Shown one piece after another: positions 5,220-55,844 of a DNA stretch of 64,000 nucleotides; position 1 is the stretch's first letter, and every line of letters starts with the position of its first letter. Below the pieces are notes generated by a model. That model was given only the letters and a program-made list of their open reading frames with translations. It searched no databases and was not told the origin of the DNA. The translations under genes were made by a program, and so were the position numbers. Source of the DNA: Pseudofrankia inefficax (GTDB taxonomy: Bacteria; Actinomycetota; Actinomycetes; Frankiales; Frankiaceae); NCBI RefSeq assembly GCF_000166135.1, contig NC_014666.1, positions 6,820,001 to 6,884,000 on the forward strand, in the 5' to 3' direction.

Positions 5220-5231
5220 CGGCTAACAGTA

Positions 5232-5363: not shown

Positions 5364-5438
5364 TGATCGCCGTCTCGGCCCTCGCGTGGTCGTAAGCGAG
5401 CCCCATTCACGACCACGCGAGGGCGAAAACGGCGATCA
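5364..5438. repeat. 75-bp intergenic hairpin repeat, copy 1
   Basis: Two 30-base arms (5364-5393 and 5409-5438) are inverted copies around a 15-base loop. The right arm matches the left with a few mismatches near CTCGG/CGAAA. It starts TGATCGCCGT and ends ACGGCGATCA, as in the other copies. It lies 55 bases downstream of the stop of the FadD-like gene (minus strand) and upstream of the carboxylase operon. It could act as a transcript end or 3' stabiliser. Confidence 0.88.
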
Positions 5439-5493
5439 AGGCGAGTTGAGCCGTTCAAGGGCCGACGGTCTGAGTGGCGGAACCTCGGAAGGG

Positions 5494-7065
5494 TCAGCGT
5501 GCGGAGGTCAGGTACTCCTCGCGGAGCTTGAGCTTGTTGAGCTTTCCGGTGGGCATGCGCGGGAGCTCGGGGCGGAACGCGAAGGTGCGCGGGACCTTGT
5601 AGTGGGCGACCGAGGCGCGGGCATAGGCACGCAGCTCTTCGACGAGGTCGTCGTCCGGCTCGATCCCGGCGGCGGGGGCGACGACCGCGTGGACGTACTC
5701 CCCCATCTCAGGGTCGGGCAGCCCGAAGACGGCGACGTCCGCGACCTTCGGGTGCATGATCAGCGCCGCCTCGACCTCGGCCGGGTAGATGTTGACGCCA
5801 CCAGAAATGATCATGAAGCTCTTCCGGTCGGTCAGGTAGAGGAAGCCGCCCTCGTCCAGGTAGCCGACGTCGCCGGTTGTCGTCCAGTTCGGGTGCTCGG
5901 GGTGACGGCTGGCCTTCGTCTTCTCCGGGTCGCCGTGGTACTCGAACGGTGCCGTCTCCTGCTCGAAGAAGACCAGCCCCGGCACACCTGGGGGAAGCTC
6001 GCCGCCGGCCTCGTCGCAGATATGCGGGATGCTGCGCAGCGCCGGGCCGACGGAACCGGGGTGCGCGAGCCAGTCCGCCGAGCCGATGAACGTCAGCCCG
6101 CTGCCCTCGGTCGCCGCGTAGTACTCGTCGATGATCGGGCCAAGCCAGTCGATCATCGCCCGCTTGACGTCCGGCGCGCAGGGGGCCGCGGCGTGCAGCA
6201 CGCTGACCAGGCTTGACAGGTCATAGCGGCGACGGACGTCGTCGGGCAGCTTGAGCAGGCGAACCATCATGGTCGGCACGAGCTGGACGTGGGTGACCCG
6301 TTCCCGCTCGATGACGGCGAGTAGCCGCTCCGGGTCGAACCTGTCCAGGATGACCAGCGTCCCGCCGACCTCATGAACCGCTCCGGACCACTGCAGCCCG
6401 GCCGCGTGGTAGAGCGGCGCCGGACAGAGGTAGACCAGATCCTCGGTCCAGTGGAGCAGAAGCTCGCCCAACAGCGAGATCCGGGTGCGTTCCGGGTCGG
6501 TCACCTGCCGGCCGGCCAGCGGCCGTTGGATGCCTTTCGGACGGCCGGTCGTGCCGGACGAGTAGAGCATCACCTCGCCCACGGGCTCGGTGGGCAGCGG
6601 CTCGGCGGAGACGGCGGCGACGGCGTCCTCGTACGGCTCGAACCCGTCCACGACGCCGTCCATCATCAGCCGGACCCTGCAGTCGGGCACGCTGGCGGCG
6701 GCCTGCGCGGCCAGCTCGCCGAACCGGCGGGTGGCGACCAGCGCGCGGGCGCCCGAATCCGCCACCTGGTAGGCGACCTCGCTCGGCGCGAGATGCCAGT
6801 TCACGGCGGTCAGGTAAAGGCCGGACCGAATCGCGGCCCAGAAGACCTCGAAATAGCGCGGATGGTTCTCGGCGAGAATCGCCACCGTGTCGCCCGGCCC
6901 AAGACCGTTCTCGGCCAGCAGCCGGGCCAGCCGGACCGAACTGGCGTTGAGCTCGGCATAGCTCAGGCGCGTCACCACGGCCTCGGTGGCCGCCGGCCAG
7001 TCCGGGCCGCCCATGAGAACCGCGGTCTTCTCCGGATGGGTCACGGCGAACTGGCCGGGATACAT
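5494..7065 (-). CDS. AMP-dependent acyl-CoA synthetase (FadD-type)
   Basis: 523 residues of the ANL superfamily. The phosphate-binding motif is YSSGTTGRPKG (A3). Next come an ATEGSG-type A5 motif, TGDVGYLDEGGFLYLTDRKS (A7/A8) and the C-terminal PTGKLNKLKL with the catalytic lysine. The enzyme activates a carboxylic acid to an acyl-AMP and then an acyl-CoA. The N-terminus MYPGQFAVTHPEKTAV is typical of actinobacterial ligases for steroid or medium-chain acids. ATG 7065 is preceded by GGGAGG. It is transcribed toward the carboxylase operon but is separated from it by about 270 bases that contain hairpin repeat copy 1. It probably supplies acyl-CoA to the neighbouring enzymes. Confidence 0.92.
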   Translation of the reverse strand: MYPGQFAVTHPEKTAVLMGGPDWPAATEAVVTRLSYAELNASSVRLARLLAENGLGPGDTVAILAENHPRYFEVFWAAIRSGLYLTAVNWHLAPSEVAYQVADSGARALVATRRFGELAAQAAASVPDCRVRLMMDGVVDGFEPYEDAVAAVSAEPLPTEPVGEVMLYSSGTTGRPKGIQRPLAGRQVTDPERTRISLLGELLLHWTEDLVYLCPAPLYHAAGLQWSGAVHEVGGTLVILDRFDPERLLAVIERERVTHVQLVPTMMVRLLKLPDDVRRRYDLSSLVSVLHAAAPCAPDVKRAMIDWLGPIIDEYYAATEGSGLTFIGSADWLAHPGSVGPALRSIPHICDEAGGELPPGVPGLVFFEQETAPFEYHGDPEKTKASRHPEHPNWTTTGDVGYLDEGGFLYLTDRKSFMIISGGVNIYPAEVEAALIMHPKVADVAVFGLPDPEMGEYVHAVVAPAAGIEPDDDLVEELRAYARASVAHYKVPRTFAFRPELPRMPTGKLNKLKLREEYLTSAR

Positions 7066-7514
7066 GACGGCCTCCCTCGTTCCAGTGACCCGCCTCCGGT
7101 GGCGCGACCGGCACGACGGCGGCTACCGGAAGCAGAACCACGTTCTAGCAGGCATCGGCGACGGCTCCGGCGAGGAGACCCTCGTCACATGTCTGACGAT
7201 AGCCGCGGTGACGGCCGATGGCGACCGATGGCCGCGTTCACCCATGGCCAGGGGCACTGTCTCGGCCCGACGGACGGCATCTCCCCCTGCTGCCGCTCGC
7301 CCGGACCGTCCGCCCGACCGGCTGACGCACCCAGGGCCGCATCCGTGGCGGCCGGGAACACCATTCCAGTCACGGCCACGCCGTCAACCACCTCGCGGTC
7401 GCGCCGTGTGCCGCCATCGCCGATCTCAGGCGCGGTGTCCGGTGGCCGCGCGGCCGGCCGTTCCGAATGGTCGGGAGCAGGTCAGGCCGCGGCGCGGGGC
7501 GGCAGAATGCGCGG
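7066..7514. other. 449-bp intergenic stretch, no gene supported
   Basis: This lies between the divergent FadD-like and GNAT genes and should hold both promoters. The short open frames here lack family-like sequence and ribosome sites. I see no repeat or clear operator. Confidence 0.6.
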
Positions 7515-7955
7515 GTGACCGCGATCCGCCGTGCCCGGCCCGCTGACTCCGACACCGTCCTCACGCTCGTGCGGGAGTTCAACGCGATCGACGGCCACGA
7601 CCACGACGATGCCCGCGTCGGCCGCGCGCTCGCCCCACTGCTGGCCGACGACGAGTTCGGCCAGGTCTGGTTCATCAACGGTCCCGACGACGAGCCGACG
7701 GGCTACGCCGTCCTGTGCTGGGGATACAGCCTCGAGTCTGGCGGCCGTGAGGCCGTGCTCGACGAGATCTACGTCCGGGACCGCGGGCTCGGCCTCGGTT
7801 CCGCCGCGCTGCCCGCGTTGTTGGACGCCTGCCGCGCCGCCGGTGTGCTGCGCGTCTTCCTCGAGACGGAGGCACCCAACGACGCCGCGCGCCGGTTCTA
7901 CGCCCGCCACGGCTTCCAGCTCGAACAATCCATCTGGATGACCCAGCAGCTTTGA
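7515..7955 (+). CDS. GNAT-family N-acetyltransferase
   Basis: 146 residues. The body has the GNAT order: RRARPADSDTVLTLVREF, a central strand with the acetyl-CoA loop IYVRDRGLGLGSAALPALLDACR (R-x-x-G-L-G type), then FLETEAPNDAARRFYARHGF. It transfers an acetyl group from acetyl-CoA to an unknown amine. I chose GTG 7515 because it places the GNAT domain directly at the N-terminus; the frame is open upstream to 7467. It stands alone, with hairpin repeat copy 2 about 100 bases after its stop. Confidence 0.87.
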   Translation: MTAIRRARPADSDTVLTLVREFNAIDGHDHDDARVGRALAPLLADDEFGQVWFINGPDDEPTGYAVLCWGYSLESGGREAVLDEIYVRDRGLGLGSAALPALLDACRAAGVLRVFLETEAPNDAARRFYARHGFQLEQSIWMTQQL

Positions 7956-8057
7956 CGATCCCGGCTGACCTTTCGACTTTGCCGCCACAGTGACCCTGCC
8001 GGCCAATTCGGGCCTGGAGTCTGGGCGAGTCCTACACCACGGCCACCGGACCGGTCA

Positions 8058-8132
8058 TGATCGCCGTTTGGGCCCCGAGGTGGTCGCGGAAACGCGCCCG
8101 TCGCGACCATCCCAGGGCCAAAACGGCGATCA
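8058..8132. repeat. 75-bp intergenic hairpin repeat, copy 2
   Basis: Arms 8058-8087 and 8103-8132 pair around a 15-base loop. The inner stem is TGGTCGCG/CGCGACCA where copies 1 and 5 have TGGTCGT/ACGACCA. It lies 102 bases after the GNAT stop and 114 bases before the next gene. Confidence 0.88.
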
Positions 8133-8246
8133 AGGAGACGCTAGACCACAGGCCCGCCGCCGGGACGAAAAATCTCTTCGGGAATCCGCCCCGCGGTCGC
8201 ATCATGAAACGAAAGGAAACAGGACGCGCTGTCGGGGGGTGGCGCT

Positions 8247-8885
8247 GTGGCTGTGATGACCGGGCTGTTGGCGTTGTGGGCGGTGACGGCCGGCTGGTGG
8301 GGCCGCCACCTGGATACGGCGCTACACGAGGGGGGACACGCTCTCTTCACGTGGGCGCACGGCGGGCGGGTGAAGCAGGTACACATCGACCGCCGCGACG
8401 GGGGGCTCACCAGATTCGAACTCGGGTCGATGGGCCGGTTCGGCGTTTTCATGATCTTTTTTGCCGGCTACGTCAGCCCACCGCTGGCCGGGCTCACGTC
8501 CGCGAGCCTGCTGGCCGCGGGCAACGAGACCTCGGTGTTCATTCTCGCCGTGCTCGCGCTGGTCGCCCTGCTTCTCGTCGACGTCAACAAGTTCGGCCTC
8601 GTCGTCCTGCTGTCGAGCGCCGCCGCGCTCGTCGGGCTGGAGCGATACGCGCCGGGCTGGTTCGGGCGCTGGTGCGCGTATTTCCTCACCTGGTTCCTGC
8701 TGCTGTCCGGGGTCAGGTCCGTCGTCATCCTGCGGCAGGTGCGCCGGAGTGGGCCGAGCGATTCCGACGCGGACATCCTTGCCCAGATCACCCATGTCCC
8801 GGGGTTCCTGTGGGTGTTCGTCTTCGGGGCCGTCAGCGTGTTCTGCCTGCTGAAGGGCGCCAGGCTGCTGGTCGTACCCGGCTGA
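8247..8885 (+). CDS. M50B-like integral membrane protein with HEGGH motif
   Basis: A 212-residue multi-span membrane protein (about five or six hydrophobic segments). Near the N-terminus is HEGGH (residues 27-31), a classic HExxH zinc-metalloprotease signature placed after a first membrane segment, as in the M50B-like family. Site-2 proteases carry a third ligand in a distal LDG or DG motif. I see only VDVNKFG around residues 111-117, so the zinc site may be incomplete or use another residue. It could be an intramembrane protease or a family member of unknown activity. GTG 8247 is preceded by a G-rich ribosome site; ATG 8256 is an alternative. Hairpin repeat copy 2 lies upstream. Confidence 0.7.
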   Translation: MAVMTGLLALWAVTAGWWGRHLDTALHEGGHALFTWAHGGRVKQVHIDRRDGGLTRFELGSMGRFGVFMIFFAGYVSPPLAGLTSASLLAAGNETSVFILAVLALVALLLVDVNKFGLVVLLSSAAALVGLERYAPGWFGRWCAYFLTWFLLLSGVRSVVILRQVRRSGPSDSDADILAQITHVPGFLWVFVFGAVSVFCLLKGARLLVVPG

Positions 8886-8903
8886 GCGTTCCCGCCCCGA
8901 CGG

Positions 8904-9998
8904 TCACCGCTGCTTGGTGAGAACCCCGTCGCCGGTGCCGTCGCCGACGTCGTCGAAGTGGTAAACGAGATTGCCGTTCCCGTCGAGTGTGAGCGACAAC
9001 GCGGTGTCGGAGCAGTTCGTGCCACCCACGATGTGCTCGGTCACCTGGACGGCGTTTCCGCCCTGGTTCAGCAGCAGGTCGCCGGAGCAGGGAATGGTCG
9101 GATAGTTGGAGGTGCCGACCACCTGGCCGATCGATCCGCCACGCAGCACCAGGGTCACCGGGTAGGTCGTGTTGAACTCGTGCGCCGGGTCCTTCTGGGT
9201 CACGTTGCCGGTCCAGGTGCCGCGCAGCTCGGCGGGCAGTTCGTCGGGACCGGCCGCCGGCGACCCGCTCGGGGTCGGCTGCGTCGACGTGACGGCCGCC
9301 GGCGGATGGATCCGGGCGTCGAGGAGCTTCTGCGCCCGGCCCCGCGGCGGGTAGACCGGCGCGATCGCGGTCAGCACGACCGCCACCAGGACCAGGACAC
9401 CGGCGACGCCGACGACGATCTGGTCGAACACCGGCAGCGCCCGGATCCGCGGGCCACGGTCCGCCGCGGCCGCCGGCCGCTGTGACGGCCAGGCACCGGG
9501 GGCGGCCGGCGGCTGACTCGCGGGCCACGGCGTGCTCTGCGGCCACGGCGTTGGCTGCGCCGGCGGATATCCCTGCGGCCAGGGGGTGCCCTCCGGCATC
9601 GGCTGGGGCGGTGGGGCCGCCTGCGGGCCCGGATACGGCGCCGGCTGAGCCGGAGCGCCCTGAGTCGCCGGTGCCGGCCCTGTCAGGCCCGTCGGGGGTG
9701 CGAGCGGCGCCGGGGATCCCTCCGGCCCGGTCGGGGCCGGAGCGTACCGCGGGGTCGCCTGGGGGGCCGGCGCCTGCTGCGGGGCCGGCTGCGCCGGGGA
9801 GGCAAGCGTGGGCGGTGGCTTCAGCTGGGGCGGCAGGACCTGGGTGACGTCGCCGTCGTCGTCCTCGTCGTCCTCGAACCCGGGCGCGGACGCCTGGGGC
9901 GCCGCCTCGGCGGGCGGCGGGCTCGCGGGCGGCGCGGGCCGCGACGGTGGTTCGGGCCGCGACGTTGGTTCGGGCAACGGCCAGCTGGACTCGGACAC
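8904..9998 (-). CDS. Proline-rich single-pass membrane protein with extracellular beta domain
   Basis: A 364-residue protein in three parts. The cytoplasmic N-terminus has an acidic patch (EDDEDDDGD) followed by about 150 residues dominated by Pro, Ala and Gln. One membrane segment (VVGVAGVLVLVAVVLTAIA) follows. The C-terminal extracellular domain of about 110 residues begins LRGTWTGNVTQKDP and resembles the small beta-barrel modules attached to actinobacterial Ser/Thr kinases and their accessory proteins. Two cysteines (IPCSGD, TNCSD) could form a disulphide outside. Start GTG 9998 is preceded by AGGTG. It ends 18 bases from the convergent HEGGH gene. Function is unknown; a cell-envelope sensor or scaffold is plausible. 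Confidence 0.75.
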   Translation of the reverse strand: MSESSWPLPEPTSRPEPPSRPAPPASPPPAEAAPQASAPGFEDDEDDDGDVTQVLPPQLKPPPTLASPAQPAPQQAPAPQATPRYAPAPTGPEGSPAPLAPPTGLTGPAPATQGAPAQPAPYPGPQAAPPPQPMPEGTPWPQGYPPAQPTPWPQSTPWPASQPPAAPGAWPSQRPAAAADRGPRIRALPVFDQIVVGVAGVLVLVAVVLTAIAPVYPPRGRAQKLLDARIHPPAAVTSTQPTPSGSPAAGPDELPAELRGTWTGNVTQKDPAHEFNTTYPVTLVLRGGSIGQVVGTSNYPTIPCSGDLLLNQGGNAVQVTEHIVGGTNCSDTALSLTLDGNGNLVYHFDDVGDGTGDGVLTKQR

Positions 9999-10351
9999 GG
10001 CACACCTGTCGTTAGGGGATCCCTTCTCATCATCGACCGGGCACGCGGTCCTGGGAATGCCGGTACGCCGACAAAACATCCCAAGAGGGCACACGAGGCG
10101 GCCCGGCCGTCTCGCCCTGGCGTCGGGCCGCGCAGGCCCCGCCGGGCATGATCTCCCGCACACCGTCGAGGCCGCCGCAGCGTACGGACCGGCCCGACCA
10201 CCGGCGCCCGGGCCCCAGGCGCGCCGGTTCGGATGCGCGAAGCGGTGACCGCGCGGTAGGCAGGGCGGAGCGGCTCCGCCGTGAGACGCCCGCGCCAGCC
10301 GCGCGGACGTGCCGATCGCGAAGAGACGTGCGACGTGAGAGGACAGGGCCG
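9999..10351. other. 353-bp divergent intergenic region, no gene supported
   Basis: It separates the proline-rich membrane protein gene from the dehydrogenase gene and should hold both promoters. Open frames run through it, but none shows a family signature or a ribosome site. No repeat was recognised. Confidence 0.55.
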
Positions 10352-11182
10352 ATGACGAAGGTCGGATTCATCGGGCTGGGCAGCCAGGGCCAGCCGATGG
10401 CACGACGCATCGTGGACGCCGGCTTCCCGCTGACGATCTGGGCGCGGCGCGCGGCGGCGGTCGAGCCGTTCGCGGACACGGCCGCGACGACGGCGGCGAC
10501 GCCGGCCGAGCTCGGCGCCGCCAGCGACATCGTCGGGATCTGCGTCGTAGCCGACGCGGACGTGACCGACGTGCTGTTGCGCCCGGACGGCGTGCTCGCC
10601 GGCATGGACGCGGGCGGCCTGCTGATGCTGCACTCGACGATCCACCCGGACACCTGCCGGCTGATCGCGGACGCGGCCGCCGACCGTGGGGTCGCGGTGA
10701 TCGACGCCCCGGTCAGCGGCGGCGCCCCCGCGGCGTCCGTGGGTCGGCTGTCGGTGATGGTCGGCGGCACGGACGAGGACGTGGCCCGTGCCCGCCCGGT
10801 GCTGGAGACGTTCGCGGACCCGCTGCTGCACCTGGGCCCGCTCGGCAGCGGCCAGGTGGCCAAGCTGCTGAACAACTTCGTGTTCACCGCGCAGGTGGGG
10901 CTCGCGCTGGACACGTTCGCGTTCGCCGACCGGCTCGGCATCGACCGGGCCCTCGCCGCGCAGGTGCTGGCGGGCGGCACCGGTGGCTCCCGGGCCGCGG
11001 GCATCCTGGCCGCGTCCGGCTTCGATCTGTCCGGGCTGCGCGGCGCCGAAGGGCTGCTGCGCAAGGACGTCCGGATCACGCTGGAGGTCGCGGCGGGCGC
11101 CGGCACCGAGGCGCCGGCGACGCTGACCGCGCTCGCGCAGGAGACACTGACCACGCTGGCCAGCCCGCCGGTCGCCGGGTAG
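10352..11182 (+). CDS. NAD(P)-dependent beta-hydroxyacid dehydrogenase (3-hydroxyisobutyrate dehydrogenase family)
   Basis: 276 residues. The N-terminal Rossmann motif is VGFIGLGSQGQPMARRI. It is followed by the substrate-binding DAPVSGGAPAA and the catalytic-lysine region GSGQVAKLLNN, in the order of 3-hydroxyisobutyrate, tartronate semialdehyde and related dehydrogenases. The exact substrate cannot be read from sequence. ATG 10352 is preceded by AGAGGA. An enoyl-CoA hydratase gene follows 148 bases downstream on the same strand, which suggests a role in a branched acyl or hydroxyacid pathway. The spacing allows a separate promoter. Confidence 0.9.
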   Translation: MTKVGFIGLGSQGQPMARRIVDAGFPLTIWARRAAAVEPFADTAATTAATPAELGAASDIVGICVVADADVTDVLLRPDGVLAGMDAGGLLMLHSTIHPDTCRLIADAAADRGVAVIDAPVSGGAPAASVGRLSVMVGGTDEDVARARPVLETFADPLLHLGPLGSGQVAKLLNNFVFTAQVGLALDTFAFADRLGIDRALAAQVLAGGTGGSRAAGILAASGFDLSGLRGAEGLLRKDVRITLEVAAGAGTEAPATLTALAQETLTTLASPPVAG

Positions 11183-11330
11183 CGGGCGGCGGGTGGGCCG
11201 AGCCGGCACAATGGGGTACGTATAACGAATACTTGATACGACGCGCACCAGTCGGGACACGGCACCCGGGAGACGTCCCGGGATCAGCCATCCCCTCTCG
11301 CCGCGCCGGCTCGAACCACCAGGGAGAACC

Positions 11331-12191
11331 GTGAGCGCCCAGGACCGCCAGACCGCCGAGTCGCCCACGGCAGGCACGGAGGAGCACGCCCGGCTGACCG
11401 AGCAGGACGGCATCCTCACCCTGACCATCGACCGGCAGCGCAAGCGCAATCTGATCAGCCCGCAGATCACCGAGCTGCTCTGGCAGGCCGCGACCATGCT
11501 GGGCGATCGCGACGATCTGCGCTGCCTCGTGATCACGGGCGTCGGCCCCTACTTCACCGCAGGGGTCGACCTGTCGGCCGGGGTGGGCAACCGGCCGGCG
11601 AACCCCGAGACCGAGCATCTGCACCCCGGCTGGAACTTCCGGCGCAACTACCGCAGCCACCACCTGCTCTACGACGAGTTCGAGTCCATCGAGAAGCCGA
11701 TCATCGTGGCCGTGAACGGGATCTCCCTGGGGGCCGGGGTCGAGATGGCGGTGAGCTGCGACTTCCGGTTCTGTACGCCGGAGGCCGAGTTCGGGGTGCC
11801 CGAGGTCCACATGGGGATGCTCGCGGGCAGCGGCGGCACCAGCCGGCTGACCAGGCTGGTCGGCCCGGCCTGGGGCAAGTGGATGGCGATGGCCGGCCGC
11901 CGGGTCGGCGCCGAGCAGGCCAAGCAGATCGGCCTGGTGCACGACATCTTCCCGGCCGAGACGTTCCTGGACGAGGTCTACGCGTTCTGCCGGGACCTGA
12001 CGAAGATCCCGCCGGAGGTGCTCGGCGTCGCGAAGCTGGCCGTCGACATGTACGCCGACATCTCCGACCGCACCGCCGCCCGGAACATCGACCGGCTCCT
12101 GGTCACCGGCCTGATGAACTCCCCCGAGTTCCTCAGGCGGGCCGGCAGGTTCGGCTACGGGCGCACGCCCGCCGTCCAGCCGGAGCCCTGA
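11331..12191 (+). CDS. Enoyl-CoA hydratase/isomerase
   Basis: A 286-residue crotonase-family protein with LTIDRQRKRNLISPQ, oxyanion loop YFTAGVDLSAG, GISLGAGVEMAVSCDFRF and FGVPEVHMGMLAGSGGTSRL. Both glutamates used for hydration (in GVEMAV and VPEVHM) are present, so it should be an active hydratase, unlike the hydratase-like gene at 1832. GTG 11331 follows AGGGAGAACC. Upstream lies an AT-rich stretch (11218-11240) with GTATAACGAATAC, an inverted GTAT/ATAC pair that may be an operator. It ends 13 bases before the convergent SpoIIE phosphatase gene. Confidence 0.9.
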   Translation: MSAQDRQTAESPTAGTEEHARLTEQDGILTLTIDRQRKRNLISPQITELLWQAATMLGDRDDLRCLVITGVGPYFTAGVDLSAGVGNRPANPETEHLHPGWNFRRNYRSHHLLYDEFESIEKPIIVAVNGISLGAGVEMAVSCDFRFCTPEAEFGVPEVHMGMLAGSGGTSRLTRLVGPAWGKWMAMAGRRVGAEQAKQIGLVHDIFPAETFLDEVYAFCRDLTKIPPEVLGVAKLAVDMYADISDRTAARNIDRLLVTGLMNSPEFLRRAGRFGYGRTPAVQPEP

Positions 12192-12204
12192 GCGGGGCCG
12201 GCGG

Positions 12205-14232
12205 TCAGGTCATCGCGACCGCCAGCAGGCACAGGTCGTCCTCGCGGTCGACCGGTGCCACCGCGTGCAGGATGTGGTCGCAGAGTCCGTCGGGGTCGTT
12301 CCGGTAGACGGCCGGCACGGTCACGGCGGCCTCGGCCAGCGCCGCGAGCTGGGTCGTCAGCGACCGGCCCCGGCGTTCGACCAGGCCGTCGGTGAACAGC
12401 AGCAACTGGTCGCCCGGTTCCAGCTGGAGGCTGTTCTGGCCGTAGCTGGCGCCCGCGTCGACGCCGAGGATCGGGCCGTTGACCTGCTCGAGAAAGCTCG
12501 CGCCGACGCCCGCCGCGGCCCGCACGAGCAGCGGTGGCGGGTGGCCGGCGCAGGACCAGTTCAGGAGGCCGGTGGCCGGGCAGAGGTCGGCGACGACGGC
12601 GGTGGCGAGCATCTCGTCGGACCGGCTGCCCAGGTTGGCCGACAGCTGGGTGGTGATATCGGCCGGCGTCCGCAGTTGCAGCGCGTAGGCCCGGGCGGCG
12701 TGCCGCAGCTCGGCCATCGTCGACACGGCTCGTAGCCCGTGGCCGCCGACGTCGCCGACGACGAGGCTCAGCGTGCCGTCGGACAGCATGGTCGCGTCGT
12801 ACCAGTCGCCGCCGATCCCGAGGTCACGGCCGGCGGGGAGGTACCGGGCCGCGAGCCGGACACCACCGAGATCGGGCAGCGTCTGCGGCAGCACGGCCCG
12901 CTGCAGGGTCTCCACCGTCGACATCTGCCGCTCATACAGGCGGGCGCGTTCCAACGCCTGGGCGAACGGCCCGACGAGCGTGAGCAGGAACCGTCGTTCG
13001 TCCTCCTCGAACGCCTGCGGCTCGGGCCAGCCGAGCACCATGAGGCCGATCGGGCGGCCGGACACGATCAGCGGCAGGCTGGCCAGGGCGTCGATGCTCA
13101 TCGCGTCGAGGTTGGGCCCGCGGTCGGGGTAGTCGCGCAGGTAGCTCTTCCGGTCGTTGTCGAACCGCGGCCGGCCGGTACGCAGCACCTGGTCGGTGGA
13201 GGCCGGGCCGAACGCCGGCATCCGGCGCCAGGCCTCGGTGAGGAACCTGGAGTTCGGCCGGCAGTGCACCCGCGGCGGCCCGTCCTCCTCCAGCAGCACC
13301 AGCCCGACGAACAGCACACCCAGGTCGGCCTGCGCCGCGTGGGCCGCGACATCGCACAGCTCGTCGACGGTCATGACCTGGCCGAGCTCGACCGTGGCGT
13401 CGAGCAGCTGCCGGGAGCGGCGCAGCGCGGAGGACAGCGAGCCGATCAGCGCCTTGCGTTCCGCGTCCGCGCGGTGGCGAGCGTCGACGTTGCGCATCGC
13501 CACGACGAGGCCGTCCGGGATCGGGAACGTCCGGACCGCCCACCAGGCGCCGTCCGGATCGGTCGCCTCGATCTCGAGGACCGGCTCGGGCCGAGACTCC
13601 TCGGTGGTCGGTTCGGTGCGCCGACGGCGGATCGCCGCGACATGCTCACGCACCGGGGGCAGCAGCAGATCAGCCGCCGGCTTGCCGACCATGTCGTCGC
13701 GTGGCAGCTCGAACTGTCGAATCGCCTGGATGTTGGCGTGCACGATCGTGTCCGTCTCGTCCAGCACCAGGACGATGTCGCCCATGTGGTCGAGTGCCCG
13801 GGCGACCCGGTCCCGTACGGTCCGATCCGGCGTCCGGTCCGTGCAGAGCCCGATCACCCTCGCTCTGCCATCAGGCCCCTCGCGCAGCAACCGGGCTCGT
13901 GTCTGCACCCAGGTCACCGAGCCATCGGTGCTGACGACGCGGTACTCCTCAAGGAACGTGTTCTCGTTCCGCAGGGCCGCGTCGCGGGCCCGGATCAGCG
14001 CCGGCCGGTCGTCCGGGTGGACCGTCGCCATCGCGTCCTGCGGCGACACGGATCCGGGACGATCGCCGAACCCCAGCAACCGGGCCGCCGCCTGGTCGTA
14101 GAACATCCGGTCGGTCGCGACGTCCCAGTCGAAGATCCCGACCCCGAGGGCGGTCAGCGCCCGGTAGAGATCGCCGACGCCCCGCCCGACCCCGTCGGTC
14201 TGGCTCCCCCACACCTGCGGCCGCTCGTTCAT
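12205..14232 (-). CDS. PAS-PAS-GAF-SpoIIE (RsbU-like) PP2C serine phosphatase
   Basis: 675 residues. PAS-like domains lie at about 25-135 (FDWDVATDRMFYDQ) and 145-250 (VLVLDETDTIVHANIQAI). A GAF domain spans about 285-440, then a helical linker (ERQMSTVETLQRAVLPQTLP) and a SpoIIE/PP2C catalytic domain to the C-terminus. The catalytic part has the metal-site motifs GGDWYDATML and GDVGGHGLRA and the late DLCLLAV. Such proteins dephosphorylate anti-anti-sigma factors in partner-switching stress control. There is no transmembrane segment, so the signal is probably cytoplasmic. I preferred ATG 14232; an earlier ATG at 14265 is possible. It is divergent from the FHA gene. No sigma or anti-sigma gene is adjacent. 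Confidence 0.9.
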   Translation of the reverse strand: MNERPQVWGSQTDGVGRGVGDLYRALTALGVGIFDWDVATDRMFYDQAAARLLGFGDRPGSVSPQDAMATVHPDDRPALIRARDAALRNENTFLEEYRVVSTDGSVTWVQTRARLLREGPDGRARVIGLCTDRTPDRTVRDRVARALDHMGDIVLVLDETDTIVHANIQAIRQFELPRDDMVGKPAADLLLPPVREHVAAIRRRRTEPTTEESRPEPVLEIEATDPDGAWWAVRTFPIPDGLVVAMRNVDARHRADAERKALIGSLSSALRRSRQLLDATVELGQVMTVDELCDVAAHAAQADLGVLFVGLVLLEEDGPPRVHCRPNSRFLTEAWRRMPAFGPASTDQVLRTGRPRFDNDRKSYLRDYPDRGPNLDAMSIDALASLPLIVSGRPIGLMVLGWPEPQAFEEDERRFLLTLVGPFAQALERARLYERQMSTVETLQRAVLPQTLPDLGGVRLAARYLPAGRDLGIGGDWYDATMLSDGTLSLVVGDVGGHGLRAVSTMAELRHAARAYALQLRTPADITTQLSANLGSRSDEMLATAVVADLCPATGLLNWSCAGHPPPLLVRAAAGVGASFLEQVNGPILGVDAGASYGQNSLQLEPGDQLLLFTDGLVERRGRSLTTQLAALAEAAVTVPAVYRNDPDGLCDHILHAVAPVDREDDLCLLAVAMT

Positions 14233-14403
14233 CACGGTTCGTGTACCCAGCCCGCAGGCCCGCACGCGACGTTGCCCCTCGGGCGAGTCGGGTTGGCGAC
14301 AGTAAGCGACTTTCTAAGCTCCGGTCCGCTAGTGCCCCGCGGGGCGACTCTCGACAGGGGTGCTGGGACAATCGGTGCGGAGGCGGGACGGAGGTCGATA
14401 CGG

Positions 14404-14865
14404 GTGTCCGAGGAGCTGATGGTCCGCCATGGGGCAGAGGTCGCCATGGTGCCCGTGGACCGGCCGTTCGTCATCGGCCGCGGGTCCGCTGCCGACCTGC
14501 GCCTCACCGACGCCCGGGTGTCCCGGCGGCACCTGATGGTGAGGCAGACCGAGCACGGCTGGTCGGTCCTGGACATCAGCGCGAACGGGACCTGGCTGGA
14601 CGGCGAGCGGGTCCGCCGGGTCGACGTGTGCCGGGAGGTCCGGCTGAACCTCGGCGCGGTGAACGGTCCGCGGATCACGCTGATCCCGGGCCCGCCGCCG
14701 TCGTTCCCGGACTACCCGCTGCCCGTGGTGCCCGAGCTCATGACGGTCCCGACCGAGATCACTTTTTCGTCACCGGCGATCGACCTCGGTCAGACCCGCC
14801 TGCTGCACGACGTCGCCTTCCGGGTCCCCAGTCAGCTGTCCCGACCGGCGGGAGCCGTGACCTAG
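14404..14865 (+). CDS. FHA-domain protein
   Basis: A 153-residue protein with one forkhead-associated domain near the N-terminus: VDRPFVIGRGSAADLRLTDARVSRRHLMV, then SANGTWLDGERV. The conserved Gly-Arg, Ser-x-x-His and Asn-Gly residues that bind phosphothreonine are all present. The C-terminal 60 residues have no recognisable domain. It probably reads phosphorylation by a Ser/Thr kinase. The start GTG 14404 is placed after GGAGG with 9 bases spacing; ATG 14419 is an alternative with its own GAGGAG. It is divergent from the SpoIIE phosphatase gene. Hairpin repeat copy 3 begins 39 bases after the stop. Confidence 0.85.
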   Translation: MSEELMVRHGAEVAMVPVDRPFVIGRGSAADLRLTDARVSRRHLMVRQTEHGWSVLDISANGTWLDGERVRRVDVCREVRLNLGAVNGPRITLIPGPPPSFPDYPLPVVPELMTVPTEITFSSPAIDLGQTRLLHDVAFRVPSQLSRPAGAVT

Positions 14866-14904
14866 TGCCGTGACCGCCGAGGTCCGCCGGTCTGCCCGTC
14901 ACGT

Positions 14905-14979
14905 TGATCGCCGTTTTCACCCTCTGGTGGCTCTGAAACAGACCCGGTAACAGCCACCGGAAGGCCGAAACGCCGATCA
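14905..14979. repeat. 75-bp intergenic hairpin repeat, copy 3
   Basis: Outer arms read TGATCGCCGTTT and its near complement AAACGCCGATCA. The inner stem is GGTGGCT/AGCCACC, changed on both sides relative to the GGTCGT/ACGACC stems of copies 1 and 5. It lies 39 bases after the FHA stop. The 218 bases that follow, up to the lipoprotein gene end at 15198, show no supported gene. Confidence 0.85.
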
Positions 14980-15197
14980 TGGGGACGCCGGAAACGGGCG
15001 AACCTTGCCGGAGGCGGCACTAGTAGGCGGCAAGCCGGCGTCGTTCACACGGGCGAGGAACAGCGAGCTGGTCTCGATCGCCAGCGCCAGCAGCGTGGCG
15101 TGACACCGGCGCCGCGCGTTCGCCGTCGGCCGGCACGGTCCGATCAGCTGAGTCGAAGGTGGTGACCAGAGGTGGCTGGAAATCGGGCGCCCTACGG

Positions 15198-15761
15198 TCA
15201 AGGAGTGACCGACGGGCCGAGAGGCTGGCTGCTTCCAGTGTTAAACCAATTGTCGGAGATCCACCCATCCTGCCCGTTGTATCGCACGTAGTCCCACAAG
15301 GTGCTGGTGCTGTTGCGGGTAACCGCGTCGCCATTGCCATGTCCAACCAGGCCAAGCATGTCCCCTGTTGATACTGTTGCAACGACCGGCGCGTTCAGAG
15401 TGGGCCTGATCTTGATATAAACGGTAGCGACTGAGCCGTCAGGATTGTCCATCACGGGATAGTACGCGAGTATCGGGCTGCTTCTGCCGTCGACGCTACC
15501 GGCTGGTGGGGAGCTACTCGGAACCTGCGGTGCCGGTTGGCCGGACGTTCCCGGCGCGCCCGGCTGTCCAGGCGCCCCCGGCGCGCCTGGCGACCCAGCC
15601 GGACCGCTCGGTCCTGGAACCACGATGACTTTGTCGCCACCGCCGCAGGCACTGAGCAGGCCGACGAGCAGAGCGAGAGCGCCAATAACGACGACGCCTA
15701 CTGCCTTCCGAAAACAGTTGCCTCTGATGATTCTCCCGGAGATAATTCCCACCACCCCCAA
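15198..15761 (-). CDS. Lipoprotein with collagen-like repeat and bacterial SH3 domain
   Basis: 187 residues from a TTG start (GTG at 15755 or 15752 are alternatives). Basic residues and a hydrophobic run end in the lipobox LLSAC (Cys39), so it should be lipid-anchored outside the membrane. Residues 50-76 are nine consecutive Gly-x-y triplets rich in Pro and Ala, a collagen-like stalk. The C-terminal part resembles a bacterial SH3 domain (KIRPTLNAPVVATVSTGD, then WDYVRYNGQDGWISDNWF). SH3 domains of this type bind cell-wall peptides. The gene and its flanks are less GC-rich than the neighbours, which may mean transfer. Function is likely surface attachment or wall sensing. Confidence 0.82.
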   Translation of the reverse strand: MGVVGIISGRIIRGNCFRKAVGVVVIGALALLVGLLSACGGGDKVIVVPGPSGPAGSPGAPGAPGQPGAPGTSGQPAPQVPSSSPPAGSVDGRSSPILAYYPVMDNPDGSVATVYIKIRPTLNAPVVATVSTGDMLGLVGHGNGDAVTRNSTSTLWDYVRYNGQDGWISDNWFNTGSSQPLGPSVTP

Positions 15762-16016
15762 TTCGCCTGGAAGTAGAATCTCGCTCCCGGTTCCGGCAAC
15801 CTTTACTCTCTGCGATATCCCCAGGTATCCATCGCGGAACCATCATTCCACGGACGACGCGGCCGACCTTGGTAGGGACTACCGCCCAGAAAACGAACGA
15901 ATCGGACGTCGCCGGGCGTCCTGGGTCGCAGGCATCCGGCCACAGTGATCAGCCGGGTGTCGTGCCGGTCCAGGGCGAGTTCGCGGCCGTTCCGGCGGCG
16001 GCCGCGATCGTGGCGT

Positions 16017-16640
16017 TCATCGGGCGCCTGCCGCCTGCCGCGGGCCGGCGAGGCCAAGCTTGTCGACGACCGTCTGGACGACCTCCGCCGGCTCCGGGCC
16101 GATGTCGACGGTCAGCCGGTTCTCGTCCGGCCCCGGCTCCTCCAGCGTGGCGAACTGCGAGTCGAGCAGGCCCGGCGGCATGAAATGACCGTGGCGGGCG
16201 GCCAGCCGCTGCCCGATGACCGCGCGGGAGCCCCGCAGGTAGACGAACAGTTCGGCGCCGCTGCCGGCACCCGCGGCGACGTCCGCGGCCGCGGCCGGTC
16301 CGGAGCCGTCGACGGCCCGGCCGCGCAGCACGTCGCGGTAGGACCGGCGCAGCGCCGAACAGGTGATCACACCGGGCTCGCCGGCCTCGATCCGGTCGTG
16401 AATCCAGCCGCGGACGCGCAGCAGCCAGGGCCAGCGGTCAAGATCGGTCAGCGGGTGGCCGGCGGCCATCTTCTCGACGTTCGCCCGCGGATGCAGATCG
16501 TCACCCTCGGCGAACGGCCAGCCCAGCCGTCCGGAGAGCATCGCGGCGACAGTGGACTTGCCACAGCCCGAGACCCCCATCAGCACCAGGACGGGCAGGC
16601 GCTCGGTCTCCCTGGAACGTCCGGTCACGTGGTCGCTCAC
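16017..16640 (-). CDS. Gluconokinase (GntK family)
   Basis: 207 residues with the P-loop GVSGCGKST, then RLGWPFAEGDDLHPRANVEKMAAG and DRWPWLLRVRGWI, then TCSALRRSYRDVLRG. This is the order and spacing of thermoresistant gluconokinases, which phosphorylate gluconate to 6-phosphogluconate. It is about 30 residues longer than usual: an Ala/Gly-rich insertion follows RDVLRG, plus short extra ends. The GTG at 16640 was chosen because the P-loop begins about 20 residues later, as in the family; the frame is open further upstream. No gluconate transporter is adjacent. Confidence 0.88.
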   Translation of the reverse strand: MSDHVTGRSRETERLPVLVLMGVSGCGKSTVAAMLSGRLGWPFAEGDDLHPRANVEKMAAGHPLTDLDRWPWLLRVRGWIHDRIEAGEPGVITCSALRRSYRDVLRGRAVDGSGPAAAADVAAGAGSGAELFVYLRGSRAVIGQRLAARHGHFMPPGLLDSQFATLEEPGPDENRLTVDIGPEPAEVVQTVVDKLGLAGPRQAAGAR

Positions 16641-16719
16641 GACGACTCCGAACTCCAGGTCGGACTCCTGCGCACCGTGTGCCTCCCCAGGCTCAGCCCC
16701 GTGACCGCGAAACCACCGG

Positions 16720-16956
16720 TCAGCATGCCGCAGCGGCCTCCACGACCAGCGCGGGGATGGTCGCCTCGGCACCGGCGTGGTCGGTAGGAGTGCCGGGCGC
16801 GGCCACCAGTTTCGACTGTCGGGCCCATTGTTCGTAGTACGCGTGCACCTCCTCCCGGCTCTGGAAGATGTGTCGCACGTTCTCATCCGGGGTGGCCAGC
16901 CCTGAGGTGGCGGAGAGCAGGTGGTGGATGGTTTTCTCCACGACCAGGCCGTCCAT
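16720..16956 (-). CDS. Small hypothetical protein
   Basis: A 78-residue frame (MDGLVVEKTIHHLLSATSG, then NVRHIFQSREEVHAYYEQWARQ), mostly helical with an Ala-rich end. The central part has balanced residue use and lower GC than chance frames here, so it may be real or the remnant of a longer gene. The frame is open further upstream to 17013. I do not recognise a family. It lies between the gluconokinase and the His-rich membrane protein on the same strand. Confidence 0.35.
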   Translation of the reverse strand: MDGLVVEKTIHHLLSATSGLATPDENVRHIFQSREEVHAYYEQWARQSKLVAAPGTPTDHAGAEATIPALVVEAAAAC

Positions 16957-17013
16957 CCGGCGACGTGACACTCCCCGAGGCCAGCCGGCCATGGGGTGAC
17001 CCGTGCGGACCAT

Positions 17014-18120
17014 TCAGCCCGACGCGCCGGAGCTCGGCGCCTGCGTGTTGGGGATGCCGAAGCCGCGGCCGACGTCGGGACGGCGCAGCTTCCAGATGAG
17101 GCCGTCGTAGAAGAGGTGCAGGCCGCCGGCGATCAGCACGAACAGTGTGAAGTAGGGGTAGCCCGCGGCCGTCAGGCCCACCAGGATGGCGCCGATTCCG
17201 GCGAGGTAGGCGGCGAGGAAACCGGTCCGGCCGGCCGGGGAGCGCACGACCGCGGCGACCGGCCCGGTTCGGACGTCGACCGGCTCGCCCGCCTTCGGCT
17301 TCGGCCGGTAGCGGCCTTCGAGATGGTGGTGGACGACCAGGAAGTACTCGGCCGCGTGGGAGCCGACGTAGGCGATGAAGCCGACCAGCGGGTTGACGGC
17401 CACCAGCAGGATCATGACCAGGGTCGAGCCGACGTAGAACCACTTCGCCGGGTTGGCGTTCGGGTTGCGGTGTTCGGCCAGCGCCCACCGGACCAGCGCC
17501 GCGATGGCGACCGCGGCCGCGATCGGCAGCAGGATCCGGGCGATCGGGGCGGCGTCGGTGAGCAGGTCGAGCGCCCGGCGGTTGACGCCGCCCAGCCCGG
17601 CGACGGCTACCTTGTCCGCGGTGCTTCTGGCCGACGCGGCGGCGAGGACGGCGGTGACGAGCCAGCTGTACAGGAGGAGCCGCTCGGCGTTCCCGTGGCT
17701 GTCCTGTGCCTTGCGGCCGTAGATCCTGGTCAGGCCGTACCGCTGCTGCAGGGTGTGCACGGCGTTCCAGACAGCGGCGACGACAGCGAGCAGCGCGAAG
17801 CTCACGAGCATCCCGAACGCGACCAGGGCGGCGAGTACGAACGGGCTCGCCGTGAAGATCGCCCGTCGGGTGGCGAACTGCTTGCGGTCGCCGTAGACGA
17901 GCAGCAGCGTCAGCGGCTGGTGCATGACGGAGAACATCAGCGTCGCCGCGACCAGCCAGCGCACCGCGGGCCCGTTGTCGGCCAGCGCCCAGGCCACCGC
18001 CGCGAACGGCACCCACAGCGCCGCCACGCCGAGGTCATAGGTCGCCGAGCGAATCCAGCGCGGCCGCCTGGACCTCGGCGGCGCTGCCTGGGCGACGGGC
18101 TCCACCGCGATCGCCGTCAC
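17014..18120 (-). CDS. Multi-pass membrane protein with conserved-looking histidines
   Basis: 368 residues with roughly eight hydrophobic segments. Histidines cluster beside aromatic and charged residues at membrane edges: FSVMHQPLTLLL, WNAVHTLQQRYGLTRIYGRK, GSHAAEYFLVVHHHLEGRY and GLHLFYDGLIWKLRRP. This resembles di-iron or haem membrane enzymes (the Brp/Blh carotenoid dioxygenase or fatty-acid hydroxylase styles), but the family cannot be fixed. The Trp-Lys-Leu-Arg-Arg-Pro end and GYPYFTLFVLIAGG suggest a conserved actinobacterial protein. GTG 18120 follows GGAGG. The promoter region holds two sets of 18-bp direct repeats. Confidence 0.7.
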   Translation of the reverse strand: MTAIAVEPVAQAAPPRSRRPRWIRSATYDLGVAALWVPFAAVAWALADNGPAVRWLVAATLMFSVMHQPLTLLLVYGDRKQFATRRAIFTASPFVLAALVAFGMLVSFALLAVVAAVWNAVHTLQQRYGLTRIYGRKAQDSHGNAERLLLYSWLVTAVLAAASARSTADKVAVAGLGGVNRRALDLLTDAAPIARILLPIAAAVAIAALVRWALAEHRNPNANPAKWFYVGSTLVMILLVAVNPLVGFIAYVGSHAAEYFLVVHHHLEGRYRPKPKAGEPVDVRTGPVAAVVRSPAGRTGFLAAYLAGIGAILVGLTAAGYPYFTLFVLIAGGLHLFYDGLIWKLRRPDVGRGFGIPNTQAPSSGASG

Positions 18121-18148
18121 GGCCGGCCTCCGTCAACGGACACGAACC

Positions 18149-18254
18149 GGGAATCCTGCGAACGCTGGGAATCCTGCGAACTCCGGGAATCCACCGGCCG
18201 ACCTCCCAGACGTGGAGCGGGGCTCCTACCAGGTATGGGGCTTCAACCAGGTAT
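18149..18254. promoter_or_regulatory. Two sets of 18-bp direct repeats upstream of the membrane protein gene
   Basis: Set one is GGGAATCCTGCGAAC at 18149 and 18167, with a truncated third copy at 18185, an 18-base period. Set two is two adjacent 18-base units, 18219-18236 and 18237-18254, both ending ACCAGGTAT. Both lie within 135 bases of the start at 18120. Tandem sites in helical phase suggest cooperative regulator binding. Confidence 0.55.
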
Positions 18255-18329
18255 ATAGCCGACGCCGCCTACCTCGTCCACGGCCCGACCGGCCCATTCC
18301 ACCCGACGCCCGGCCGCCGGGCGCCACCT

Positions 18330-18404
18330 TGATCGCCGTTTTGGCCCTCCCGTGGTTGCCACGGGCGCCGGATCGCAACCACCCGAGGGCCAAAACGGCG
18401 ATCA
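18330..18404. repeat. 75-bp intergenic hairpin repeat, copy 4
   Basis: The best-paired copy. Arms 18330-18359 and 18375-18404 differ at only two positions. The stem reads TTTTGGCCC/GGGCCAAAA and TGGTTGC/GCAACCA. It lies 66 bases downstream of the purL stop (minus strand). Confidence 0.92.
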
Positions 18405-18470
18405 AGAAGCGCGGAACCGGCGGCTCGCGCCGGCCGGCGCCGGGCCGGGCCGGCGCCTGGCCGGCCGGGG

Positions 18471-34475: not shown

Positions 34476-34550
34476 TGATCGGCGTTTCAGCCCTCGGGTG
34501 GTCGTAAGAACGGCCTGGTCACGACCACCTCAGGGCTGAAACGGCGATCA
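34476..34550. repeat. 75-bp intergenic hairpin repeat, copy 5
   Basis: Arms 34476-34505 and 34521-34550 pair almost completely. The stem carries TTTCAGCCC/GGGCTGAAA where copy 4 has TTTTGGCCC/GGGCCAAAA, a compensatory change. It lies between convergent genes, 41 bases after the GH4 stop and 44 bases after the DeoR stop, where a bidirectional terminator would be expected. Confidence 0.92.
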
Positions 34551-41217: not shown

Positions 41218-41226
41218 CGTGGCTCC

Positions 41227-47911: not shown

Positions 47912-47916
47912 GCTCG

Positions 47917-48594: not shown

Positions 48595-48603
48595 GAGGTG
48601 CCG

Positions 48604-49197: not shown

Positions 49198-49470
49198 CGC
49201 GCCCTCCCGCCCGGACGACAATCCCCCGCGGACGTGATCGCTTGGCGCCGCCGGGGGACCCGGCCGGGCGCCCCGCGCTGCCGTTCACGTCCGGCAATGC
49301 CCATTCGCTACCCATTTTAGGGCCAGGCCGGGCCCGTCGCGGGCCGCTGAGCTGTTCTTCCCGCACGTGCTCAGCGCCACCCGGCCGCCGCCGGTCGTCG
49401 GGCAACGCCGGTCCCCGGGCGGCCCGTCCCGGCGGGTCTCTGCCGACCGCGACGATTATGGTCAGGATCT

Positions 49471-49998: not shown

Positions 49999-50101
49999 TC
50001 CCACTCGGCCCTTTCGCGATCCTCGCTGTGAGCGAGCGCGCCGCCGAGGGCGGCCTCCGGTGGCGTTCCGGGAGATCCGCGGTGACGCCTATGCTGCCCG
50101 C

Positions 50102-54335: not shown

Positions 54336-54519
54336 ACCCCCATGGTCACCCAGACCGTCGCGAACGCGCCTCCGTGCGGGCACGGAGCGAATAGACCCGG
54401 GCGCTCACGGACGCGGGCGTGCCGGGTGACAGCGGACAGTTCACCTCGACACGCGGCACAACCGGGAAACGGCGGCCGCAGCCGGCGGCGCGCCGTCCGC
54501 GACAGCACTGGAGGTCCCC

Positions 54520-54771
54520 ATGTCCGCCATCCTTCCCCTGCTCGGTGGCCTGTTGCTCGGCCGGTTCGCCCACCTGCGTCTCGCGCTGGGCATCCAGGTG
54601 GCGTTCTACGCCGCCGCGGCCGCGGCACTCATCGCGACCGCGCCCAGCCACGGCGCCAGTTACACCGACGGCGTTCTGCTCAGCCTGGTGCTCGCCCCAC
54701 TGTCGGCGCTCACCTTCTTCATCGGCTGGCGCTGGCGCCGGCACGCCCAGCGCGGCGCCCAGCACGCCTGA
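54520..54771 (+). CDS. Small two-span membrane protein
   Basis: 83 residues with three hydrophobic stretches (ILPLLGGLLLGRFA, ALGIQVAFYAAAAAALIA, VLLSLVLAPLSALTFFIGW) and a basic end (RWRRHAQR). ATG 54520 has GGAGG five bases upstream, which supports it. No known family. It starts 184 bases from the divergent sensor kinase and precedes the dienelactone hydrolase gene by 106 bases. It could be a target or accessory of the two-component pair. Confidence 0.7.
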   Translation: MSAILPLLGGLLLGRFAHLRLALGIQVAFYAAAAAALIATAPSHGASYTDGVLLSLVLAPLSALTFFIGWRWRRHAQRGAQHA

Positions 54772-54877
54772 CCGGCTTCGCCCCGGTCCGTGGTTCCTCG
54801 CGCGGGCCGGGGCCGGCAGCCACGGCCCGCGTGCCGGATCTCGCTGGGGCCCCGGGGTTCTGGTTGACTCCCCAGCC

Positions 54878-55693
54878 ATGGCCGACGATGATCTCGCCGA
54901 TTTCGAGACGACGACCTTCACGCACGACGGCAAGGCCCGGACGGTGTACCGAGCCGGCACCGGCCCGGCCGTGATCGTGATCGCCGAGATGCCCGGGATC
55001 ACCCCGAAGGTGGCCGCGTTCGCCCGCAAGGTCGTCGGCGTCGGCTGCACGGCGGTGATGCCGCACCTTTTCGGCGTCCCTGGCAAGGACCCGCTCGACG
55101 GCGGCCGGCTGGGCGCTCTGCGGTACACGATGTCGTCGTTGGTTCCCGCCTGCGTCAGCCGGGAGTTCACGATCTGGGCGACGAACCGCACGTCACCGGT
55201 CGTCTCCTGGCTGCGCGGACTCGCCGCGGCCGAACACGCCCGCTGCGGGGGGCCTGGCGTCGGTGCCGTCGGCATGTGTTTCACCGGCGGGTTCGCGCTC
55301 GCGATGGCGACGCATCCCAGTCTGATAGCTCCCGTGCTGGCTGAGCCGTCACTGCCGTTTCCCCTCAGCAAGGCCCACAAGAAGACCATCGACTGTTCCA
55401 GTGGCGACCTGGAGGTGGTCAAGGGCCGGTGCGCCGCGGAGGGCCTGCAGGTGCTCGGCCTGCGCTTCAAGGGCGACAGCCTCTCGCCCGGTGCGCGCTT
55501 CCAGTCTCTTCGGGACCAGCTTGGCGGTGCCTTCGTCGCCGTCGAGCTCGACGACAGCAGCGCCAACCCCGCGGCCACCATGAAGCCCCATTCCGTCCTC
55601 ACGGAACACCTCATCGACGAGCCGGGCCAGCCGACCCGGGCCGCGCTGGACCAGGTCCTGGAGCTGTTCCGGTCCCGGCTCCTGCCGGCCTAG
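54878..55693 (+). CDS. Dienelactone hydrolase-family protein
   Basis: 271 residues, alpha/beta hydrolase fold of the DLH family. The nucleophile elbow is GAVGMCFTGG (Cys134) and the family glutamate lies in IVIAEMPG (Glu37). A histidine in PHSVLTEHLID is the probable third residue. True dienelactone hydrolases act on ring-cleavage lactones; this longer member may have another ester or lactone substrate. The start ATG 54878 is preceded by no strong ribosome site. Hairpin repeat copy 6 lies 76 bases after the stop. Confidence 0.87.
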   Translation: MADDDLADFETTTFTHDGKARTVYRAGTGPAVIVIAEMPGITPKVAAFARKVVGVGCTAVMPHLFGVPGKDPLDGGRLGALRYTMSSLVPACVSREFTIWATNRTSPVVSWLRGLAAAEHARCGGPGVGAVGMCFTGGFALAMATHPSLIAPVLAEPSLPFPLSKAHKKTIDCSSGDLEVVKGRCAAEGLQVLGLRFKGDSLSPGARFQSLRDQLGGAFVAVELDDSSANPAATMKPHSVLTEHLIDEPGQPTRAALDQVLELFRSRLLPA

Positions 55694-55769
55694 GTCCGCC
55701 GGCCGCCAAGGACGTCGGCCCTCCCCCCACCCCCGACCACCGCGCCGGCCGGGCCGACGGTCGCGCCCA

Positions 55770-55844
55770 AGATCGCTGGTTGCGCCCACCGGTGGTCGTC
55801 CAGGTACTCAGATCACAGCCACGGCAGGGCCAAGACCGCGATCA
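55770..55844. repeat. 75-bp intergenic hairpin repeat, copy 6 (degenerate)
   Basis: The same 75-base length and the same blocks as the other copies, with more mismatches: left arm AGATCGCTGGTT, right arm ending GACCGCGATCA. TGGTCGT and ACAGCCA remain recognisable. It appears to be an old copy. It lies between the dienelactone hydrolase stop and the transglutaminase gene; the following 237 bases show no supported gene. Confidence 0.7.

Follow-up and report, generated by a model that had tools for sequence, protein, structure and literature searches.

A 75-bp palindrome family in Pseudofrankia inefficax, probably of IS630-type mobile origin and possibly turned into a REP-like element at gene 3' ends

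Why should one stretch of the Pseudofrankia inefficax chromosome carry six intergenic hairpins of the same size, and what keeps them alike? The stretch in question, called the window in the following, comprises 64,000 bp (positions 6,820,001-6,884,000 of a single-contig genome of 8,815,781 bases). A preliminary description had reported six elements of exactly 75 bases with two 30-base arms and a 15-base loop, and had deduced from seemingly compensated stem changes that selection acts on the fold. Coordinates, length and geometry all proved right, and our own gene calls likewise place the six copies between genes. The shared ends were confirmed as well, TGATCGCCGT at the start in four copies and ACGGCGATCA at the end in four. 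Predicted RNA energies range from −32.0 to −56.4 kcal/mol, and Rfam returned no match at gathering threshold within the window, in agreement with the earlier impression that no named family is involved. The best overall explanation, to which we give a probability of about 0.7, is that a mobile element has turned into a 3' element resembling the repetitive extragenic palindromic (REP) sequences.

The six hairpins are members of one large family. A covariance model found 51 copies in a first sample of 864 kb, consisting of the window plus 800 kb adjoining it and around known matches. A second sample of 800 kb spread over the chromosome contained 25, equivalent to about 275 copies genome-wide, so that the first sample must be unusually dense. 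Over the entire genome, a covariance model built from 21 copies gave at least 150 matches with both strands counted, and the strict pattern TGATCGCCGT-N45-65-ACGGCGATCA occurred 57 times versus 0 times for a reversed control. Enrichment over shuffled sequence was equally clear with a two-arm profile, which recovered 51 copies in the 864 kb and none in the shuffled counterpart. Scanned down to a score of 12, this profile had its lowest copy at 23 with nothing in between, and 48 of the 51 copies scored 58 or more. Isolated arms were rare (two beside the 51 copies, one beside the 25). The length described as fixed is nearly so, being exactly 75 bases in 47 of 51 copies of the first sample and 22 of 25 of the spread sample.

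The family is confined almost entirely to one genus. Model R1 matched 7 of 35 genomes of the bacterial family, namely seven of the eight in the own genus and none of the 27 elsewhere, with 0 to at least 138 matches per genome of the genus (both strands). In a sample of the class, the strict pattern was present in 6 of 393 genomes, five of the genus and one metagenome-assembled genome (MAG) of the Sporichthyaceae. Among the matches listed beyond these, most have ill-matching arms and varied lengths, and judged by appearance, without gene calls, we read them as chance coding matches; in L133, L199, L111 and L210 the arms match well, but lengths and sequences are different.

Our analysis supports an IS630-type mobile unit with the hairpin at its core, which lay beyond what the preliminary description could see. 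A BLAST search with window positions 1-20000 returned 25 places in AgB1.9, the genome of a second species, that cover most of 14861-15023 around the third hairpin. After exclusion of five of 28 copies that could not be oriented, 23 copies (window 14905 and 22 from AgB1.9) were aligned. They define a unit of about 155 bp in which outer repeats TGCCGtGACCGCCAAGGTC...CGGAGGCGGCA, terminal inverted repeats (TIRs) of the TGCCG type, flank the core. In an ungapped count, a tetramer with at most one change from CTAG is found at the left end of 18 units and at the right end of 17; 14 units have it at both ends and three have an exact CTAG at both. Related copies have similar flanks, and CTAG occurs 80 times within 150 bp of 132 copies, with peak offsets of 38-41, versus about 12 times at the genome-wide rate, a rate that understates the expectation because CTAG is commoner near gene ends. 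PMC2170065 describes TA as the insertion site of IS630-family elements, which duplicate it; the present flanks would look alike after a TA duplication of 2 bp and after a CTAG duplication of 4 bp.

In another genus of the family (L265), TIRs of the same type, 1.23 kb apart, bracket an open reading frame (ORF) for an IS630-family transposase (NF033545, 153 bits with a cut-off of 100; DDE_3). The right TIR of the short unit is like one end of this insertion sequence in 21 of 25 bases. A relative of the transposase gene is open in G008, and a decayed one (85%) in AgB1.9 has a visible end that reads CTAG-TGCCG. A search of the P. inefficax genome itself gave no match to the transposase, and one of plasmids gave none to the unit. 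As judged from these sequence relationships, the family very probably spread within one genus in the form of IS630-type miniature inverted-repeat transposable elements (MITEs). L284 182-434 in AgB1.9 is a larger unit whose TIRs, about 250 bp apart, bracket a single core together with additional repeat-like sequence. At L114 2608-4524 (AgB1.9) and in L020 an internal similarity of 67-93% is repeated beside an element, apparently as a repetitive stretch.

Comparison between the two species shows both gain or loss and persistence of copies. In stretches syntenic with AgB1.9, 17 own copies are shared, nine own copies have no counterpart and nine are found in AgB1.9 only. Several of these 18 lineage-specific copies have long unaligned gaps, so that not all are clean insertions; among eight that were aligned, six are clean gains or losses of about 110-185 bp, and the empty sites read CTAG at two loci and CCGG at a third. 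At locus 6755708, AgB1.9 seems to retain remnants of both TIRs, the core having apparently been deleted. Within the window, the AgB1.9 site syntenic to the fifth hairpin is shorter by about 142 bp, the fourth hairpin has an orthologue with ten differences, and the stretch syntenic to the first carries a strongly diverged 78-bp element. Outer TIRs exceed the 99th percentile of the null in 10 of 18 lineage-specific copies versus 1 of 17 shared ones. Shared copies are usually without recognisable outer repeats and retain the 75-bp core.

What is retained can be read from the orthologues. Each arm keeps a 30-base consensus of about TGATCGCCGTTT-nn-GCCCTC-nn-GTGGTCGT. Across 19 orthologous pairs, consensus arm positions had changed in 24 of 518 cases (4.6%), compared with 65 of 462 (14.1%) at variable arm positions, 42 of 285 (14.7%) in the loop and 172 of 1428 (12.0%) in the flanks. 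The difference between consensus and flank (p = 4e-7) holds for GC and AT bases separately. This set combines 11 of the 17 shared pairs with eight from loci picked by their ends, for which positions 1-10 were omitted, and excludes pairs that differ in length or at more than 13 positions. The 11 pairs not selected by their ends gave 16 changes in 374 consensus positions (p = 3e-6), and a looser set of 14 pairs preserved the order (6.5, 18.1, 18.1 and 14.5% for consensus, variable, loop and flank). Slow change at consensus positions therefore makes it likely that the letters have been under selection in place, after insertion. Thus, the selection postulated by the preliminary description is upheld, as one on the letters of both arms, whereas covariation fails as proof that the fold is its target.

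The copies lie mainly downstream of genes, as defined by a simple codon-bias caller and not by annotation. In the first sample, 50 copies comprise 26 between convergent, 23 between co-directional and one between divergent genes; the spread sample has 10, 9 and 5 among 24 classified copies, and a further copy lies at an edge. Weighted by length, the expected shares are 10% convergent, 55% co-directional and 35% divergent. The nearest facing gene end is a median of 41 bp away (49 copies), and 20 of the 23 first-sample copies between co-directional genes lie closer to the 3' end than to the 5' end. Facing stop codons within 120 bp contain CTAG in 18 of 64 cases versus 94 of 761 genes, so that insertion at stop codons explains part of the 3' bias. 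For instance, the left CTAG of the complete unit in the window (14862-14865) includes the TAG stop of ORF 12739-14865.

On this basis, the short non-autonomous elements very probably spread as IS630-type MITEs by insertion at CTAG-like sites, which for some copies coincide with the TAG stop codon of a gene. In shared copies the outer repeats have usually become unrecognisable, and the core, which retains its arm letters, may have been co-opted at gene 3' ends to act like a palindrome of REP or bacterial interspersed mosaic elements (BIMEs). Either reading direction would yield a similar strong hairpin behind the stop codon. Such a hairpin might limit read-through or protect the 3' end of the mRNA, and a sequence-reading protein could keep the arm letters constant. 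This particular function at the 3' end is tentative and, in our estimate, less likely than not; our best guess is a REP-like role exerted by the hairpin, by a bound protein or by both.

Several observations weigh against this scenario. In our unbiased sample of own copies, a lax TIR test was passed on both sides by 7 of 39, a stricter one (99% null) was exceeded by 6 of 50, and the flanks resemble the two best subfamilies in 31 of 132 copies. The divergent share in the spread sample (5 of 24) is far above that in the first, and 75 of 238 CTAG sites outside the elements also lie at stop codons. The constraint on the arms stems from one species pair, in which detectable orthologues of equal length were counted; of the 17 shared pairs, core length is unequal in two, while 30 differences occur in one and 14-19 in three. 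A simple hairpin role is opposed by the absence of covariation, of distinctive energies and of a U-tract. The 47 copies are indeed predicted to form a stable hairpin after a stop codon, as terminators do, at a mean of −44.7 kcal/mol, but this is not clearly below the −43.7 of arm chimeras, and 3 of 20 chimera sets were as low. Energies like those of chimeras therefore do not favour selection on hairpin strength. Of 152 stem ends, one has TTTT in the adjoining 12 bases. A simple DNA-binding role, in turn, is opposed by the absence of helical periodicity and by the high information content.

It is possible, though on balance unlikely, that the element is a dyad-symmetric site in duplex DNA, on whose inverted arms a nucleoid-associated or topology protein would sit at fixed spacing, the fold being a by-product. 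Gyrase, for instance, acts on BIMEs. Such a site would account for letters rather than pairs being conserved in both arms, for a length that is nearly fixed although the loop drifts, and for the excess of copies between convergent genes. It would also fit the recurrence of the outer 12 bases and of the 74-75-bp length in another actinomycete family with a different interior. However, conservation has no 10.5-bp periodicity (permutation p = 0.98), the information content of about 45 bits per half-site is far beyond the needs of a binding site, and no candidate protein has been identified, the proteomes not having been searched for one. The loops, which had been thought to differ freely, drift at about the flank rate, yet they have an oriented consensus (about GACCGGG-G-CCGTTTC). 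Their halves match below expectation (0.33 v 0.41); the element therefore has a direction, and the loop is no continuation of the stem.

The other actinomycete family is represented by the MAG of Sporichthyaceae bacterium PMV_1 (L098, L324-L332). Ten of its palindromes were read; they are 74-75 bp long and agree with the family in the outer 12 bases, with ends (T/A)GATCGCCGTTT.../...AAACGGCGATC(A/T), and have a different interior, with TTCATGATC as inner arm in most and a 35-base loop usually containing GCAGGT. The outermost pair is T-A in five and A-T in five of the ten copies, so that the end bases change together. No 3' bias was seen among them (three divergent, two co-directional, two convergent, two in weak ORFs and one at an edge), and PMV_1 has no match to the IS630 transposase. 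The palindrome continues beyond the shared ends in several copies (CCA...TGG and more). These data might be accommodated if the 75-bp palindrome with TGATCGCCGTTT ends were recognised in cis by a factor that is conserved among actinomycetes and needs both ends 75 bp apart. Such an element would occur in two actinomycete families with different interiors, have a cousin motif in BIME-like arrays and have been carried to gene ends inside an IS630-type MITE in one genus; we consider this proposal unlikely.

The cousin motif belongs to a second palindromic family with half-sites like TGATCGCCAGTTTGGTATGGAAAT, for which 1.66 Mb gave 16 matches at up to five mismatches. Several of these stand in twos or threes, mostly in alternating orientation and about 50-55 bp apart, in a BIME-like manner. 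This family has TGATCGCC-GTTT-GG in common with the 75-bp family, the motif facing the opposite way in the hairpin.

A purely selfish MITE family, whose letters are constant because mobilisation requires them and whose copies are too young to have decayed, is a distinctly unlikely alternative. The IS630-type units, the lineage-specific copies and the widely varying copy number in the eight genomes of the genus would be expected of it, and so would the apparent loss of some copies by deletion, as at 6755708. Orthologues, however, have needed no move since the split of the species, and yet their consensus arm positions have changed at a rate 2.6 times lower than that of the flanks. This constraint in place is the chief argument against selfishness alone, and it is joined by the scarcity of half-decayed copies (3 of 51 score below 58) and of isolated arms.

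Still less probable is the view of the preliminary description that an RNA or cruciform fold is selected, as revealed by covariation. The quoted examples of compensated changes exist, and the predicted hairpins are strong. In 21 copies, pairing was slightly above that with shuffled partners (86.2% vs 85.1%), a weak excess reached by 39 of 500 shuffles; for cells altered on both sides, 17 of 500 shuffles were as high. Columns 13/63, 14/62, 21/55 and 22/54 each lack a pair in 10 to 13 of these copies. With more copies, restricted to those of exactly 75 bp (which excluded 4 of 51 and 3 of 25), the compensatory changes vanish except at one or two positions. Arm agreement in 47 copies was 0.7766 within and 0.7777 between copies (p 0.13 to 0.44 with G-U allowed). 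In 77 own-genome copies, which overlap the 47, it was 0.7779 within and 0.7790 between, and in 22 copies of other regions, three of them also among the 77, 0.7667 and 0.756 (p 0.17). Position 20/56 does covary (0.79 v 0.68, p 0.0015, uncorrected for 37 positions) and 21/55 does so weakly (p 0.02); apart from 20/56, no covarying stem in the sense of Rfam was found. Among the orthologues, 49 of the 75 single changes create or abolish a pair, and only 2 of 11 double changes keep one on both sides. The jointly changing end bases of the Sporichthyaceae palindromes speak for the fold, the chimera energies against it. For the stem as a whole, the view is largely refuted: the arms pair because both hold the same consensus, not through compensated changes. 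Hence a caution, that inverted repeats sharing a consensus can mimic covariation in few copies.

That a REP-associated tyrosine transposase (RAYT, Y1 type) moves the element, as palindromic form, intergenic position and hundreds of copies might suggest, has a negligible probability, since PF01797 was found in 0 of 5 genomes (G000, G001, G002, G006 and G025; six-frame search, E 0.001) versus 5 of 14 control genomes and complete units bear IS630-type ends.

Features of the window and examples of the second palindromic family (window coordinates unless indicated)
Feature	Position	Strand	Context
Core copy 1	5364..5438	.	flanking genes co-directional (reverse strand); 55 bp beyond 3' end of gene 5494-7065
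Core copy 2	8058..8132	.	co-directional genes; AgB1.9 orthologue differs at 4 positions
Core copy 3	14905..14979	.	within MITE unit 14862..15023
Complete IS630-type MITE unit around core copy 3	14862..15023	+	CTAG 14862-14865; left TIR from 14866; right TIR to 15019; CTAG 15020-15023
Core copy 4	18330..18404	.	co-directional genes; 66 bp beyond 3' end of ORF 18471-22343 (reverse; FGAR-AT domains)
Core copy 5	34476..34550	.	convergent genes; no recognisable outer TIRs
Core copy 6	55770..55844	.	co-directional genes; model score lowest among six
Second family, own genome	6631466-6631646, 6690483-6690609, 4723718-4723846		
Second family, L357	14262-14338		
Second family, L364	12790-12866		

Apart from the family, the window has an unrelated hairpin of similar geometry between convergent genes at 61318-61402 (arms about 35, loop 15, 86% complementary). 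It is one of five long inverted repeats outside the family in 864 kb; shuffled sequence had none.

How does the proposed mobile element turned 3' element compare with known systems? The RUP repeat of pneumococcus is an IS630-type MITE. IS630/Tc1-mariner-type MITEs in general are alike in being short non-autonomous units with IS630-like TIRs, many copies and empty sites, and in having CTAG- or TTAG-like flanks that contain the TA duplicated by IS630-family elements (PMC2170065). The present family differs in that its 75-bp core persists beyond the TIRs and is conserved where it was inserted. In E. coli, REP elements and BIMEs often lie between convergent or behind co-directional genes. In E. 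coli and other bacteria they resemble our family as hundreds of intergenic palindromes, but measure 20-40 bp as opposed to 75 bp with IS630-type ends, and no RAYT gene was found in the five genomes searched here. RAYT-type REP elements are also marked by a GTAG or CGTC tetranucleotide next to the 20-40-bp palindrome. Functions proposed for REP elements and BIMEs include supercoiling, termination and the stabilisation of mRNA (PMC3733652).

PMC10969869 describes SPRITE and BOX elements and truncated REP-like MITEs either as short mobile repeats that bear terminator-like motifs or as REP-like remnants of elements whose TIRs were lost; these occur in other hosts, and we liken them by description, not by sequence. 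The PMV_1 palindromes are alike in outer ends and length and differ in inner arm, loop and the lack of a 3' bias. In the portions consulted of the literature searched, which included PMC2770080, PMC12306157 and PMC10969869, we came across no account of this family or of such a core conserved in place. The family would thus present a case in which the inner palindrome of a mobile element outlasts its mobile ends and is then selected at many gene ends. Comparison of orthologous copies, as used here, makes it testable whether REP-like repeats are junk or tool.

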